A stretch of DNA of 64,000 nt from Chthonomonadia bacterium (GTDB taxonomy: Bacteria > Armatimonadota > HRBIN16): NCBI GenBank assembly GCA_013314755.1, contig JABUFA010000002.1, positions 62,001-126,000 of the forward strand, given 5' to 3'. A program made the position numbers and the translations under genes. Below, piece by piece: positions 29,055-37,849 of the stretch. Position 1 is the stretch's first letter. Every line of letters begins with the position of its first letter. The notes under the pieces were generated by a model. That model worked only from the letters and a program-made list of their open reading frames with translations, searched no databases and was not told where the DNA came from.

Positions 29055-30086
29055 CTATATCGCCGACGCCTCGTAGAGCATCTTCACCGGTTTGCCCGTG
29101 GCGGCGGACTCGTCAATCGCGTAGATGACCTCATGCGTCTTCGCGGCGTCAAACAGGCTCACGTGGCTCTCCACGTTGTTGCGCACGCAATCCACGAAAT
29201 GGTCTATCTCGCCGTGGAACGGGTGGTGCGTCACATCGCCACTGTCGGGGCGGATGGTGGGAACCGTAATCCAATCGGTTTGACCGGGGAACAGGTCTTT
29301 TGCCCAGATGCGGTTATCGCGCAGGGTTCCCCGCTCGCCCAGCAGGTCAATGTTGAACGCATACGGACACCGGCAGTCCAGAATCGACGACAGTTTGCCG
29401 ATTGCCCCGCCTTTGAATCGCACCGCCGCCACGACGTTGGTGTCGTACTCGTAGTTGGGGTCGGTGTTGTTGGAGTACGCCATCACCTCATCAATTTCGT
29501 CCTGCACAAAGTAGCGGATGGCGTCCACCGCGTGGCATCCCGCGCTCAGGAACGAACTGCCCGCCACGTCCTTCTTGACGTTTCACTCGTACTGCCGGTA
29601 GTGCGGTCCGATGTGGTGCCAGTAGTCCACCTCCGCATAGAAGATGCGCCCGATAGCGTTCTCTTCCAGCAGTCGCTTGATGGTCATGAACTGCGGGTTC
29701 CAGCGCAGGACGAAACTCACCACCGTCTTCACGCCCGCTTTGCGCACCGCCTGCACCATCGCCTTCAGCTCCTCGCGCGTGTTGGCGACCGCTTTTTCAA
29801 TCAGGATATGCTTGCCCGCCTGCGCCGCCAGAATGGTCTCGCGCGGATGCAGGTTTGGCGGGGTGCAGATGGACACCAGGTGCACATCCGGGTCTGCCAG
29901 CGCCTGCTCGTAATCGGTGTAGATGCGGGCACCGGTTGCGCCGGTCATCTCGCGCACACGTTCTGCGCTCTCCCGCGTGCGACTGCTGATGGCAACCACT
30001 TCGGTATAGGGGTTACGCTGATAGGCGCGGATGTGCTCGGAAGACACCCACCCTGCGCCGTGAACCAGCACACCGTACTCCGCCAT
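29055..30086 (-). pseudogene. Gfo/Idh/MocA family oxidoreductase with in-frame UGA
   Basis: Both halves lie in the same frame, separated only by TGA at 29583-29585. The first 167 residues hold the Rossmann motif (VLVHGAGWVSSEHIRAY) and the EKAVANT loop. The rest holds LSAGCHAVDAIRYF, the family's His-containing active-site region, and the C-terminal beta-sheet domain. The interrupted spot reads RQYE-stop-NVKKDVAGSSF. A Trp (TGG) there is plausible from family patterns, so this may be one G-to-A change. No frameshift is involved. It may be a recent pseudogene, a readthrough gene or a sequence error. It lies between the NagB-like and PIG-L genes of an amino-sugar operon. Other genes here end normally in TGA, so the code is standard. 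Confidence 0.75.
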
Positions 30087-31743: not shown

Positions 31744-32937
31744 TCAACCGTTGCGAAGCCCTCGCGCAATGCGCCAGATGAACAACAGTCCGACCGCCAT
31801 CACCACCCAGACCAGCGCCACCGAAACACCGGGCGTCTGCGGTGCAATCCGATCTCCCACAAACGCCAGCGTCGCCCCCGAGGCAAGCCCCAAGCCGATA
31901 AACGACTCGTGGAAGCCGCCGTGCGCGCCCTTCTGCTCACTGCCAGCCATTGAGTAGAACAGCGAAGACTGGTAGAGCAAGCCGATACTGAGCCCGAAGA
32001 GCACCTGCGCCACCAGATGCATCCCCAGCGATGGCGCCAGCATCATGCTCGTGAAGGATAGGACCATCACGCCGAAAGCTGCCATCAGCAAGCCCGGACG
32101 ATAGTGCCATCCGCTCCAGCGACGGAGCAGGTCAAAAGCCAGCATACGCACGTAAAACCACAGGCTGAACCAGCTGCTGGCGGTGGCAAAGCTGACGCCG
32201 ATGCGCTGAGCGACCAGCGGATTATAGGTCACAATCACGTTAATCGCCACGTACGCCATCGGGTTCGCCAGCCAGCCCATCAGGCGGAAAGCGTGGCGCT
32301 GTTGCGGGGTTAGCTCCACGCCTTCGGGGTCTACCACCGTGTGCTCCTCGTCGGGCAGGCTGTCGTAGTCGGGCAGAACTTTCCACACCATGAACATATT
32401 GAACAGATACAGCAGCAGGGGCAGAGCGAACATCGCCCGCAAGCCGAATGCGCTCATCAACGGCGTGGTGATGAAAAAGGAGAATCCGCTCGCTCCCGAC
32501 CATCCGAGGTTGTACAGCCCGACCAGATACTGAACCCGATGTTGCGGCTCCCCCCGGTTCATAGCGGCTTCAATAGCGGGCCAGATGAAGCCCTGAAAGC
32601 ATCCCACCAGCGCGATGGCGACCACCATGTTCCAGCCTTCGGGCAGAGATAAGCCCGCCAGTGCGCCTGTTCCCACCCCCAGCAGACCAACCTTCATCGA
32701 CGCCCGACAGCCGCGCCGTTCAATCAACCGCCCTCCAAGCACCGAGCCGATAGCGGTGAGCACTCCGATGGTGATTTGCGCGAGCGCAATAGACGAAGGC
32801 GCCCAGCCCAGCGCACGTTTGGCATAGTAGGGCTGACCATAAAGGATCATGGTGGTGGCAACCGACTGCCCCACCTGAAGCACCTGCAGTTGCCATTTGG
32901 GAAGGGTTGTGGTCATCCTGTTGCTCATGTCAGACAT
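31744..32937 (-). CDS. MFS family transporter
   Basis: A 397-residue membrane protein with twelve predicted hydrophobic segments in two halves. The loop after TM2 reads GGRLIERRGCRAS, a variant of the MFS G-x3-D/E-R-x-G-R/K-R/K motif. The second half starts after an acidic central loop (LPDEEHTVVDPEGVELTPQQ). The start overlaps the fruK-like stop (TGATG), so it is translationally coupled to a sugar-phosphate kinase. A sugar or sugar-derived substrate is plausible. Confidence 0.83.
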   Translation of the reverse strand: MSDMSNRMTTTLPKWQLQVLQVGQSVATTMILYGQPYYAKRALGWAPSSIALAQITIGVLTAIGSVLGGRLIERRGCRASMKVGLLGVGTGALAGLSLPEGWNMVVAIALVGCFQGFIWPAIEAAMNRGEPQHRVQYLVGLYNLGWSGASGFSFFITTPLMSAFGLRAMFALPLLLYLFNMFMVWKVLPDYDSLPDEEHTVVDPEGVELTPQQRHAFRLMGWLANPMAYVAINVIVTYNPLVAQRIGVSFATASSWFSLWFYVRMLAFDLLRRWSGWHYRPGLLMAAFGVMVLSFTSMMLAPSLGMHLVAQVLFGLSIGLLYQSSLFYSMAGSEQKGAHGGFHESFIGLGLASGATLAFVGDRIAPQTPGVSVALVWVVMAVGLLFIWRIARGLRNG

Positions 32938-33887
32938 CAGGCAGCAACCCTCTCACACTCCACCTTCGGCACCAGCTGCTCAATCTGCTCTCTTGTGCAA
33001 AAGCCTGCCCCGAACACCGCCGCGTTCGCCGCGCCCGCTGCCACACCCCAGCGAAGCACCTCGGCAGGCGGCATCTCATGAATCATCGCATACAGCATCG
33101 CCGCCAGCATCGAATCGCCCGACCCCACCGCGCTCACAAACTCCACCTCCGGCGGACGGGCGAACCATTCTCCCTCTGCACTTACCCAGACCGCGCCCTG
33201 CTTGCCCAGCGTCACCACTACAATCTGGATGCCTTTCTTCCTCAACTGCCTCGCCATCTGCACTGTCTCCTGTAGAGACGCCGGCTCACGCCCGAAGACG
33301 GCAGACAGCTCCGCACGGTTGGGCTTTACCATGTACGGGACAGCCTCTATACCCTGTCTGAGCAGGTCGCCGCTGCTGTCCAGTACCACCTTCACGCCCA
33401 TCTCGTGCCCCATGCGAATCACTCGCGCATGGAAATCCGCTGGCACGCCGGGCGGCGCACTGCCCGAAAGAGTAACGTAGCCGAAGCGCGGGAGCAGATG
33501 GGCAAGCTTTTCTTCCAGCGCCGCAACCTCGTCGGGATGAATCTCGGGACCTATCTCGTTCAACTCGGTTTGCGTGCCCCCAATGGGGTCAATCACCGCA
33601 AGGCATACCCGGCTCTCGCCGCGAGTCCATACGAAGTCGCCCGGAATGCCCTCCTCCTTCAGGCTATCCAGAATGAACGCGCCGTTGTGACCGCCCAGAA
33701 AGCCCGTCGCGACCACCGGCACGCCCAGCGTATGCAGTACACGGGCAACGTTGATGCCCTTGCCGCCCGCCACAATCCTGCCCGCTTCCACCCGAAACAC
33801 CCGGTCAAGACAAAACCCCTCTACCCGATAGGTCTTGTCCACTGCCGCGTTCAGGGTAACGGTCAACACCGATGTTTCACAGCTCAT
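32937..33887 (-). CDS. fruK: 1-phosphofructokinase / PfkB family hexose-phosphate kinase
   Basis: A 316-residue PfkB kinase of the FruK/LacC type. It begins with VLTVTLNAAVDKTYRV (family pattern TLNPAxD), has AGGKGINVARVLHTLG, and ends with SAVGSGDSMLAAMLYAM, where GSGD carries the catalytic Asp. The substrate is probably fructose-1-phosphate or tagatose-6-phosphate. The ATG overlaps the stop of the TlpA-like gene (ATGA) and the stop overlaps the MFS start, so the three genes form one operon. No fructose PTS gene is next to it. Confidence 0.85.
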   Translation of the reverse strand: MSCETSVLTVTLNAAVDKTYRVEGFCLDRVFRVEAGRIVAGGKGINVARVLHTLGVPVVATGFLGGHNGAFILDSLKEEGIPGDFVWTRGESRVCLAVIDPIGGTQTELNEIGPEIHPDEVAALEEKLAHLLPRFGYVTLSGSAPPGVPADFHARVIRMGHEMGVKVVLDSSGDLLRQGIEAVPYMVKPNRAELSAVFGREPASLQETVQMARQLRKKGIQIVVVTLGKQGAVWVSAEGEWFARPPEVEFVSAVGSGDSMLAAMLYAMIHEMPPAEVLRWGVAAGAANAAVFGAGFCTREQIEQLVPKVECERVAA

Positions 33888-34387
33888 GGCACACCCAGTT
33901 CCTGCCTGATGCGCTTCTCCATCTGCTCTATCGATTCCCCGTCTGCCAGAACTCTGCCGTCCTTCCCTACCAGCACCAGATGTGGAATGCCCACGATGCG
34001 GTAAGCAGAAAAGGTGCTGCGGTCATCGGTATCGCGCATCACTGGATACTTGATCCCCTTTTCACGCAGAACCTGCGCGATGTCGTCGGGCTTACCCGAA
34101 GCGTCATGCACGCCGACCACCACCAGCCCTCGTGAGGAGTACCGCGCGTATAGTCGGGCTACCTCCGGCAGCCCAGCCATGCAGCTTCCTCACCACACCG
34201 CCCAGAAGTCCAGCAGAACCAGCTTGCCCCGCAACGACTGCATCTGCACCGCTTCACCGTTGAACCACCGAGACGCGCTAAGTTCCGGCGCAGGCATTTG
34301 CGTCATCGGGCGGCGAAAGCAGACCCGCAACTGCATCCCTACCACGACGACCAGCCCCAGCATGACCAACAGCCGTATTACCTTCAT
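33884..34387 (-). CDS. TlpA-like thioredoxin with UGA at first Cys of CxxC (candidate selenoprotein)
   Basis: One continuous frame of 167 codons is interrupted only by TGA at 34190-34192. Residues 1-24 form a membrane anchor or signal. After APELSASRWFNGEAV comes the thioredoxin strand LVLLDFWAVW, then TGA, then GSCMAGLPEVARLY. The family has WCxxC here, so TGA stands exactly for the first cysteine, giving UGSC if read as selenocysteine (residue 66). The cis-Pro loop (IVGIPHLVLV) and the rest are intact. A hairpin with a GGA loop begins 15 bases after the UGA. It could also be a nonsense mutation or an error. It leads an operon with fruK and an MFS gene. Confidence 0.7.
34156..34174 (-). promoter_or_regulatory. 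Candidate bacterial SECIS-like hairpin
   Basis: On the minus strand GGGCTGCC-GGA-GGTAGCCC forms an 8-bp stem (one G-U pair) with a 3-base loop beginning with G. The loop starts 23 bases after the UGA at 34190-34192. Bacterial SECIS elements are generally a short stem-loop with G at the first loop positions, about 16-37 bases from the UGA, so this fits. GC-rich coding DNA can form such hairpins by chance, so it is supportive only. Confidence 0.45.
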
Positions 34388-34680: not shown

Positions 34681-36219
34681 ATGTGGCGCAACACCCTTTA
34701 CCTTGCTGTCATGATGCTGAGTGTGCTCCCTATAGCATCGGCACAATCCGTCTCCCTCAAGCCTCTACATGTCGATGCGAACCTTCGCGCAGCGATTGCC
34801 GTCTCCGGTCAATTCAACAGCCTCATTGTAGATGAAGGGCGCAACCTCACCCTGCCAGTGTGGGTTGCCGACTTCACCCCAGATGAAGAGGTAGACTTTG
34901 ACCAGATTGTTAGCCGCTCGTTCAGCCAGCTGGAGCTGCCGGAGGAGCCGGGCTGGGGGCTGTTCACGCCGGCAGGAAACTTCATGCAGTTACAGGTTCG
35001 CCTGACCGACACGCAGGGTCGTCTGGGGCGTGTGGAGTTTCGCGACCCGGAGACGTGGCAATTGATTGCCAGCCTGTGGGCGAACGCACAGCGCACGGAG
35101 GTATCGGGCACATTCTCCATTCCGTGGGACAGGCGGGAGCTGGTGGCGGAGGTTCTGAATGACACGGGCGGGGTTCTGGCGCGACTTGCGGTAGACGTGG
35201 GCAAGTTTGATACGGTGGTTCCGGTGTTGATTGAAAGTCCCTTCGAGCCGTTTTGTCTGGAGCCTAAAGGCTGTGCGCATTTTGGCATACAGCCAGAGGA
35301 CTTTTACGGCACGGTCGGCAACCCGTATCATCCTCCCGGTGTGAAAATCTCGCTGGAGTCTCTGGGACGCAGTTATAGCACTGTGTACCTGGACTTCGCC
35401 AACGACAGCTCAGGCACTTTGAGCATTTACCCCCCGTCTTCGCTATGGAATCTATGGCGTAAGAGGGTAATAGCCGACACGGTGAACCTCAGCAAGTTCA
35501 GAGTGGCAGACCCCCAGTCCTATGCTCAGCTGTCGCAGGCATTGAGCCAGGCGAGGCAGCAAGATGATTCCCGTCCAGTTTTGCCGGTGGAGGCGCTTCC
35601 CTACTCAGAAGGATGTGCCAGATGGAGAGTCAACTTCACTGGTCATGCAAAAGCAGTGCTGGCGATACCCTATGAGCGCAAGAAGCGAGACCGCACGCTG
35701 GATGCGTTCATCGCTGGCTTGGCAACGTATCTTGCCACACAGAAAGGTTTTCTCTCGGTACTGGTAGCTGCTGCCGCCAACAATTGGCTTCAATCTGAAG
35801 CGAACCAGCAGACATCTGGATTGAAACCGGGTGAGGTGATAGCATGGGGTGATGTGTATTCTGTAGTGGTAGACAGTGGTAAAGACGTAGCCCGTTGGGC
35901 AAACCTGACGCAGGAAGTTAGGATACTGGTGAAGGTGCGCTACCCCGACGGCTCGGAAGCACCGGCGACGGGTACTGTCAGCATTACCAGAGTTGAGCCT
36001 GACGTCCAACCGGCACCACCACCCGGACCAGTGTATGAAGTCGCCGTGCCGCATGAGGGGGTCACCGTGCAGGTGGGCAAAGGCTGGAAATATCGCTTCA
36101 AGCTGACGGCTGGCGGTGATGAACACATCTACGCTATACCGATGGTGGGCAATCCTCCTACCGTCACCCTCTACGTTCAGGTTGCCACCCCGCCGTCTCA
36201 GCCGCCGGGCGGTGAGTAG
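34681..36219 (+). CDS. Secreted protein of unknown function
   Basis: A 512-residue protein with a Sec signal peptide (LAVMMLSVLPIASA, cut before QS). The mature part looks beta-rich, with several strands of the form VRLTDTQGRLGRVEF and VRILVKVRYPDGSE, like sandwich domains. One helix-prone hydrophobic stretch lies near residue 350 (FIAGLATYLATQKGFLSVLV), and there is a proline-rich link (QPAPPPGP) before a last beta domain. No catalytic motif or family is recognised. It has its own strong promoter and a perfect hairpin after the stop, so it is a monocistronic exported protein. Confidence 0.72.
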   Translation: MWRNTLYLAVMMLSVLPIASAQSVSLKPLHVDANLRAAIAVSGQFNSLIVDEGRNLTLPVWVADFTPDEEVDFDQIVSRSFSQLELPEEPGWGLFTPAGNFMQLQVRLTDTQGRLGRVEFRDPETWQLIASLWANAQRTEVSGTFSIPWDRRELVAEVLNDTGGVLARLAVDVGKFDTVVPVLIESPFEPFCLEPKGCAHFGIQPEDFYGTVGNPYHPPGVKISLESLGRSYSTVYLDFANDSSGTLSIYPPSSLWNLWRKRVIADTVNLSKFRVADPQSYAQLSQALSQARQQDDSRPVLPVEALPYSEGCARWRVNFTGHAKAVLAIPYERKKRDRTLDAFIAGLATYLATQKGFLSVLVAAAANNWLQSEANQQTSGLKPGEVIAWGDVYSVVVDSGKDVARWANLTQEVRILVKVRYPDGSEAPATGTVSITRVEPDVQPAPPPGPVYEVAVPHEGVTVQVGKGWKYRFKLTAGGDEHIYAIPMVGNPPTVTLYVQVATPPSQPPGGE

Positions 36220-36265: not shown

Positions 36266-37849
36266 TCACTGTTCCTGGGATCCGCGATACAGCAGCTCCT
36301 CCACCACAATCGCCACATCTTCCATCGCCACACGATGCGGGGCATGGTCACGACGCAGGCGCACCTCCACCACCCCTTCCGACGCGGAACGCCCAACCAC
36401 CACCTGCACCGGCACGCCTATCAGGTCGGCATCCTTGAACTTCGCGCCCGCCCGCTCATCGCGGTCATCAAACAGCACATCCACTCCCCGTTCGCGCAGG
36501 GTTGCATAGATACTCTCTGCCACCTGTTGAGATGCTTCGTCTGAGGGGTTCAGCAACAGGATGACCGCCTCAAAGGGGGCAATCTGCCTGTGCCAGACCA
36601 AGCCGTCGGTGTCGGCTCGCGCTTCCACCACCGTCGCCAGCAGACGCATCAGGTTCAATTCGCCAAAGGTTACCTGTATCGCCCGTTGCACCCCATCGGC
36701 GTCATCGTACGTTAGGTCGTGCGCTTCCTTCGGGCACCCAACCCAGCCGATGCTCGTGCCTGTCTTTTCCTCAAGACTCCCTCCGCAATGCACGCAGGCA
36801 TCCCCTTCCCCGCCGACGCGCACATCCGCCCAGCTCGGCTCGGCGAAATCGCGCCCCCAGCACACATGCACCCGATGCGCATCCGCCAGATTCGCCCCCA
36901 CCACAAAGCCCTGCATCTGCCGAACCGCCCAGTCGGCTATCAGCGGCACGCCCTCCAGCCCCACCGGACCCGCAAAGCCCACCGGCGCACGGCTGATTGC
37001 CTCTACCTGCTCTGCTGAAAGCATCTGCACCGTTTCCGCTCCCAGCACGCGCCCCACCTTGGGCAAACTTAGCTCGTGGTCCCCCCGCACCAGTACCGCC
37101 ACCGCCCTGCCATCCGCCTCCACCAGCAGTGTCTTGACCAGCGCAGAGGGCGGCACGTTCAGAAACGGCGCAACCTCCTCCACCGTACGCAGGTTGGGCG
37201 TTTGCACGACCTCCGCTGGCGGAACGCCATCACACGAAGCAGAACTTTCAGAGGGAACCGGCAGAGGACACCATTCGGGCAGAAACGCTCGTCCACACTG
37301 AGAACATCTTAGTAATCTGTCCTCACCGTCCTGCACCACGCCCACAATCTGCCAGCCATCTCCTTCTCCTGCCAGCACCTCCAGCCCCATCTGCCGGCAG
37401 GCATGAACAAGCGTATCGCGCACGAGAATCTCCGCCTCAGCTGCAGACTCCTCATCCGCCGTGAATGCCCACACCTGAAGAAGGAGGCGCTCCCGTGTTT
37501 CCAGCAAGCCCCCGCGCGGCTCCATCTGCTCGTCGCGATAACGGTTCCACGCATACCAGCGAAGCGGCAGCGCACGCCACGAACGCGCCACCGCCCCAAC
37601 CGCACGAAGCACCGCCTGTGCCGGCTCCTCTGTGGGCGTGACCACCTGCTCGAACCCTGCTCCCTCGAAAGCCTGCTCCAGCAGATGAACCATCCTGCGC
37701 AGGACACGCGCCCCCAGTGGCAGGAAGGTGTAGACCCCGCCCGCTTCCTTGCGCATAAAGCCCGCCCGGCGCAACAACCGTTCGTGCGTGCTGACCGCAT
37801 CGGCAGGCGCCTCCCGCAAAGTGTTCAGAAGGCTTGGTGAGGCACGCAT
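36266..37849 (-). CDS. proS: Divergent prolyl-tRNA synthetase (ProS-like)
   Basis: A 527-residue class II synthetase of bacterial ProRS type, with the YbaK-like editing insert in the middle (QTPNLRTVEEVAPFL and LVRGDHELSLPKVGRVLGAE). Motif 1 is clear (GVYTFLPLGARVLRRM). The catalytic motifs are altered. Motif 2, normally REF.MKD.YSF, reads RERLLLQVWAF. The GHIF.LGT.YS block reads GWVGCPKEAHDLTY, and motif 3, normally GIGVSR, reads FGELNLMRLLATVVE. The anticodon-binding domain is present. It may be a second, non-canonical ProRS or a fast-evolving functional one. It has AGGAGGC as ribosome-binding site. No T-box leader is seen. Confidence 0.8.
   Translation of the reverse strand: MRASPSLLNTLREAPADAVSTHERLLRRAGFMRKEAGGVYTFLPLGARVLRRMVHLLEQAFEGAGFEQVVTPTEEPAQAVLRAVGAVARSWRALPLRWYAWNRYRDEQMEPRGGLLETRERLLLQVWAFTADEESAAEAEILVRDTLVHACRQMGLEVLAGEGDGWQIVGVVQDGEDRLLRCSQCGRAFLPEWCPLPVPSESSASCDGVPPAEVVQTPNLRTVEEVAPFLNVPPSALVKTLLVEADGRAVAVLVRGDHELSLPKVGRVLGAETVQMLSAEQVEAISRAPVGFAGPVGLEGVPLIADWAVRQMQGFVVGANLADAHRVHVCWGRDFAEPSWADVRVGGEGDACVHCGGSLEEKTGTSIGWVGCPKEAHDLTYDDADGVQRAIQVTFGELNLMRLLATVVEARADTDGLVWHRQIAPFEAVILLLNPSDEASQQVAESIYATLRERGVDVLFDDRDERAGAKFKDADLIGVPVQVVVGRSASEGVVEVRLRRDHAPHRVAMEDVAIVVEELLYRGSQEQ

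Follow-up and report, generated by a model that had tools for sequence, protein, structure and literature searches.

Can a UGA codon that interrupts a thioredoxin-like gene, exactly where a catalytic cysteine is expected, be read as selenocysteine (Sec)? The question is raised by a locus in a 64,000-nucleotide stretch of a Chthonomonadia bacterium genome (the window), whose source assembly spans 3.95 Mb and is 98.7% complete. The initial annotation had described a 167-codon frame with a single TGA at 34190-34192, at the first catalytic Cys of a TlpA-like protein in which the second Cys and the cis-proline were intact. This description is confirmed by the sequence, the Pfam matches and the alignment, and we add that the frame lies on the minus strand, which had been left out; the plus-strand frame at 33884-34387 is meaningless. 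The gene comprises:

34387..33884, minus strand: coding sequence of the putative Sec-containing TlpA-like protein, 167 aa, with UGA66 read as Sec and a terminal TGA
34328..34378, minus strand: hydrophobic N-terminal anchor, about residues 4-20, from sequence and alignment, with the invariant Cys23 next
34192-34190, minus strand: in-frame UGA, predicted Sec66, first residue of U-G-S-C, TGA in 6/6 orthologs
34181..34183, minus strand: TGC codon of the resolving Cys69, lying before the nearest ATG downstream, at 34180
33983..33985, minus strand: codon of the cis-proline, Pro135 in GIPHL, invariant in the alignment

The internal TGA is the only one in the frame and stands in the context LLDFWAVW-U-GSCMAGLPEV, so that UGA stands in the CxxC motif of a TlpA/ResA-like protein in place of the first Cys (W-UGA-G-S-C). 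Three Pfam families match the 167-aa protein above their gathering cut-offs, namely AhpC-TSA (54.9 bits), Thioredoxin_8 and Redoxin. An AlphaFold2 model, for which residue 66 was set to Cys and 24 Cys homologs were aligned, predicts the fold with a mean pLDDT of 92, and a PDB comparison finds ResA and DipZ to be the closest solved structures. Cys23 (codon 34319-34321, minus strand) is invariant in all six orthologs and comes right after the anchor, without a normal lipobox.

Decoding of the in-frame UGA

The genome encodes SelA (491 bits), SelB (434 bits), SelD and a tRNA-Sec with anticodon UCA, the last called by both Infernal and ARAGORN and scoring 72.9 bits against a gathering threshold of 47. 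The components that a bacterial selenoprotein requires of its genome, which the initial annotation had proposed looking for, are thus all present. SelD is itself a UGA selenoprotein (C47:36348-37274, L140); its gene carries one UGA in all 10 genomes of the genus, in the context CAG-UGA-ASK in the eight loci read. The SelD genes of the genus (L135-L142) also have a conserved hairpin downstream of the UGA, in which a G-U/A-U change preserves the pair. Formate dehydrogenase was sought as a further Sec client, and its homologs score under the cut-off and lack a UGA. The residue inserted at a UGA is not evident from sequence data, and readthrough mainly as Cys or another residue, by a mischarged tRNA-Sec or a near-cognate tRNA, is conceivable on that account. 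We regard it as very improbable: SelA and SelD are both present, the latter with its own UGA, and UGA serves as an ordinary stop elsewhere, including at the end of the selenoprotein gene itself.

Orthologs occur in five of the nine other species of the genus, at 66-70% identity, and each has one TGA, at the same codon; with the window gene included, UGA occupies codon 66 in six of six. The motif is UGSC in the window protein and UGGC in its congeners. After the UGA, comparison with the window gene gives pS of 0.54-0.58, with silent sites heavily changed, and pN of 0.14-0.19, so that the region downstream is constrained at the protein level by purifying selection; such selection is found before the UGA as well. 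The relatives therefore keep the UGA without decay, and the claim that the codons after the TGA are not decayed holds for the window gene. Four congeners possess the Sec machinery and show no ortholog of the selenoprotein gene, so that the gene is dispensable.

Could the UGA instead be a true or regulated stop, dividing the gene into two products, a short peptide from its N-terminal part and a protein of 98 aa translated from the ATG at 34180, 9 nt past the UGA? The residue encoded by this ATG, Met70, is kept in all six orthologs, and the frame from it is open. However, such a division would run through the active site of the thioredoxin fold, and the downstream piece would lack the resolving Cys69, which precedes the ATG, even though Cys69 does not vary among the six orthologs or across a 25-row alignment of relatives. 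Distant homologs have UGA or Cys at the position of codon 66 (see below), and the Sec machinery is at hand. We consider this arrangement no better than the readthrough just discussed, that is, highly unlikely.

Least probable of all, at a barely appreciable chance, is a nonsense mutation, pseudogene or sequencing error at a Cys codon: the genomes are draft assemblies, but the same UGA recurs in six separate ones, which makes sequencing error very unlikely, and the frame is otherwise intact with purifying selection downstream. The window itself offers a case for contrast. On the minus strand, a Gfo/Idh/MocA-type gene (29055-30086) has an in-frame UGA at 29585-29583, and in all eight of its orthologs, which are 91-93% identical, this codon is TGG (Trp). 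The MocA-type UGA is therefore a private nonsense change or an assembly error, an undoubted W-to-UGA case that lends the idea some plausibility for this assembly, and one that the thioredoxin UGA, judged by its conservation, does not resemble. Returning to Sec, because five sister species keep the codon and the genome holds the full Sec machinery, we conclude that the UGA would be read as Sec and that the gene is almost certainly intact.

A SECIS-like hairpin downstream of the UGA

Folding and ortholog alignment locate one further element of the gene:

34174-34156, minus strand: SECIS-like hairpin GGGCUGCC-GGA-GGUAGCCC, 8 bp, with the GGA loop at 34166-34164

The hairpin starts 15 nt past the UGA and its loop starts 23 nt past it, exactly as the initial annotation had it, and its folding energy is -13.5 kcal/mol. 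Published rules for bacterial SECIS elements call for a loop of 3-9 nt with a G in its first two positions, a stem of 4-16 bp, a spacing of 16-37 nt and a minimum free energy of at most -7.5 (PMC13188914). With its GGA loop, 8-bp stem, 23-nt spacing and energy of -13.5 kcal/mol, the hairpin lies within every one of these constraints.

Energy by itself is not exceptional against dinucleotide shuffles (z = -1.08), nor significant against synonymous reshuffles, 8.5% of which fold equally well, and for this reason third-base conservation was taken as the evidence for the hairpin. Among the six orthologs, four-fold sites are invariant at 4/4 positions in the hairpin compared with 6/36 elsewhere (hypergeometric p = 0.0023). 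Likewise, at degenerate codons with a fixed residue, the third base is kept in 5/5 cases in the hairpin and in 16/69 elsewhere (p = 0.0013). The sole amino-acid change within the hairpin, Ala77 to Val in one congener (G004), leaves G-U in place of a G-C pair; this is the only pair change among the six related sequences, which contain no compensatory covariation. An extended lower stem was rejected, as pairs of the consensus fold are broken in several sequences, and the claim is restricted to the upper stem of 8 bp. A scan of the gene region with Rfam gave no match.

Sec/Cys exchange among relatives and known selenoproteins

Homologs were searched for in 291 genomes of the phylum Armatimonadota. 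The next relative, from another family (G176), reads FFTFW-UGA-GGC, that is UGGC, in a genome with Sec machinery. Two further relatives have CGPC: G082, with Sec machinery present, and G130, in which SelA and tRNA-Sec were searched for and not found. Alternation of Sec and Cys at one site is a classic hallmark of a selenoprotein family. Conservation of the UGA in orthologs and its alignment to Cys in homologs, which together identify bacterial selenoproteins, both apply here. Across named genomes, a broad search yielded Cys proteins only, most of them 25-40% identical, and none of the matched genes had UGA at its catalytic Cys. In a tree of 63 TlpA-like proteins, the six orthologs, G176, G082 and G130 form one nine-row group (89/91), and well-supported branches force at least two changes between the Sec and Cys states.

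Other UGA-containing thioredoxins occur in the phylum. Four TlpA-like proteins of families f21 and f18 (L166, L168, L170 and L171) have UGA at the first catalytic Cys, in FFAHW-UGA-GPCNAEAPRLE, and have a common GCGGAGGCUCCGC hairpin. They share with the window protein the UGA at the first Cys and a hairpin downstream, but fall in a clade of their own (99/97), separate from the nine-row group, and apparently represent another Sec-TlpA clade in Armatimonadota. One genome (G055) has two genes of this type near each other. Neither tRNA-Sec nor SelA was found on searching G055 and G028, both of which are incomplete assemblies. A further type is seen in DipZ-like domains where a UGA turns the CCINC motif into CUINC (L167 at G045:C14 and L169 at G032:C45); these proteins make up a third clade (99/99). 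G032 has a second tRNA-Sec-like match (L184, G032:C22:52032-52122) of 55.9 bits, above gathering, beside one of 78.3 bits. Taken together, Armatimonadota may harbour an unlisted radiation of Sec TlpA/DipZ-like oxidoreductases with at least two, and by the tree probably three, UGA lineages, including the proS-trxU-pfkB cassette described below; we offer this tentatively, at somewhat less than even confidence.

The initial annotation stated that UxxC thioredoxin-like selenoproteins exist in bacteria, and the literature agrees. A thiol-disulfide isomerase-like selenoprotein with UxxC (cd02966) was first listed from the Sargasso Sea selenoproteome (PMC1088965) and appears in Table 1 of PMC13188914. 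Since such proteins have been listed from that survey onwards, the kind is already known and the window protein is an added member. The two have in common UxxC in a TlpA-like thioredoxin domain with Sec at the first catalytic Cys; by description, the window group differs in its source, Armatimonadota, in its UGSC/UGGC motif and in its N-terminal hydrophobic anchor. The predicted TlpA/ResA-like thioredoxin fold, the cis-proline and UxxC would make the window protein a TlpA-like (cd02966) UxxC selenoprotein, with placement in cd02966 by way of its ResA/TlpA matches.

NCBIfam alignments of the window protein to ResA, StoA, TlpA, DsbE and NF041054 are all under cut-off, and its group has no NCBIfam model of its own. 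NF041054, a ResA-like WAxxUGC selenoprotein, shares the ResA-like domain and Sec after a WAxx motif. However, its motif is UGC and its profile has 354 positions, whereas the window protein has UGSC/UGGC and 167 aa, and a score of 49.8 bits, far under the 300-bit cut-off, shows that it is not a member. The Cys forms of ResA/TlpA/DsbE (PDB 1st9, 4nmu) have the same fold, WxxWCxxC context and cis-proline, with Cys where the window protein has Sec. An N-terminal anchor is typical of them too. The window protein is not a member of ResA (NF002854) either, with 69 bits against a 170-bit cut-off and UxxC, not CxxC. The UGSC-containing protein NF041046 is absent from the NCBIfam matches at E <= 0.01, and the UGSC string that it has in common with the window protein is probably coincidental.

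Genomic neighbourhood and proposed function

Three neighbouring genes bear on the history of the locus:

32937..33887, minus strand: PfkB-family sugar kinase, with a 4-nt ATGA overlap with the selenoprotein gene stop
31744..32937, minus strand: MFS transporter, the next gene downstream, after pfkB
36266..37849, minus strand: ProS-like protein with tRNA_edit and HGTP_anticodon domains, located immediately upstream of the selenoprotein gene (trxU) in G003 and G004

The order in G003 and G004 is proS, trxU, pfkB, with proS and trxU adjacent. In the window, proS and trxU are separated by a 512-aa ORF (34681-36219, plus strand), which appears to have a signal peptide and has no Pfam match. In three congeners (G001, G007 and G009) proS directly adjoins pfkB and the trx gene is absent from that spot. 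No kinase ortholog was found in the incomplete assembly of G008, and none of the genomes read has a Cys version at the proS-pfkB locus. This pattern of presence and absence between proS and pfkB indicates that the selenoprotein gene was cleanly gained or lost. It also divides the claim that the gene is coupled to the sugar kinase and MFS genes: the gene order stands, down to the overlap with pfkB, but the absence of the trx gene in the three congeners that retain pfkB makes a functional tie to the kinase doubtful.

The earlier proposal of a candidate selenoprotein is supported by the Sec machinery, the hairpin, the UGA in relatives and the Sec/Cys exchange in distant homologs. We are highly confident that the gene encodes a membrane-anchored TlpA/ResA-like thiol-disulfide oxidoreductase with Sec66 as the attacking residue, its UGA presumably decoded by SelB and Sec-tRNA(UCA) with the aid of the 8-bp GGA-loop hairpin that begins 15 nt downstream. 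By analogy with TlpA/ResA, the Sec66 selenolate would attack the disulfide of a substrate, most likely a partner outside the cytoplasmic membrane, Cys69 would resolve the mixed selenenylsulfide, and a reductant would recharge the protein, which would then act in the direction of reduction. Arg21 and Arg25 lie beyond the anchor and thus place positive residues on both of its flanks, which makes the probable N-in/C-out topology less than certain. Sec should yield a faster enzyme or one that is harder to inactivate by oxidation.

A search of the open-access literature found no selenoprotein reports for Armatimonadota, to which the present locus adds a well-supported selenoprotein with a SECIS-like element and Sec/Cys pairs. 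In every one of these genomes, standard annotation would record the gene as a pseudogene or as a fragment of 98 aa. The locus also shows that the gene for a Sec thioredoxin can be gained or lost as a clean cassette without loss of the Sec machinery. Finally, if the radiation of Sec TlpA/DipZ-like proteins proves true, parts of the phylum would be selenium-dependent specialists in envelope redox chemistry.
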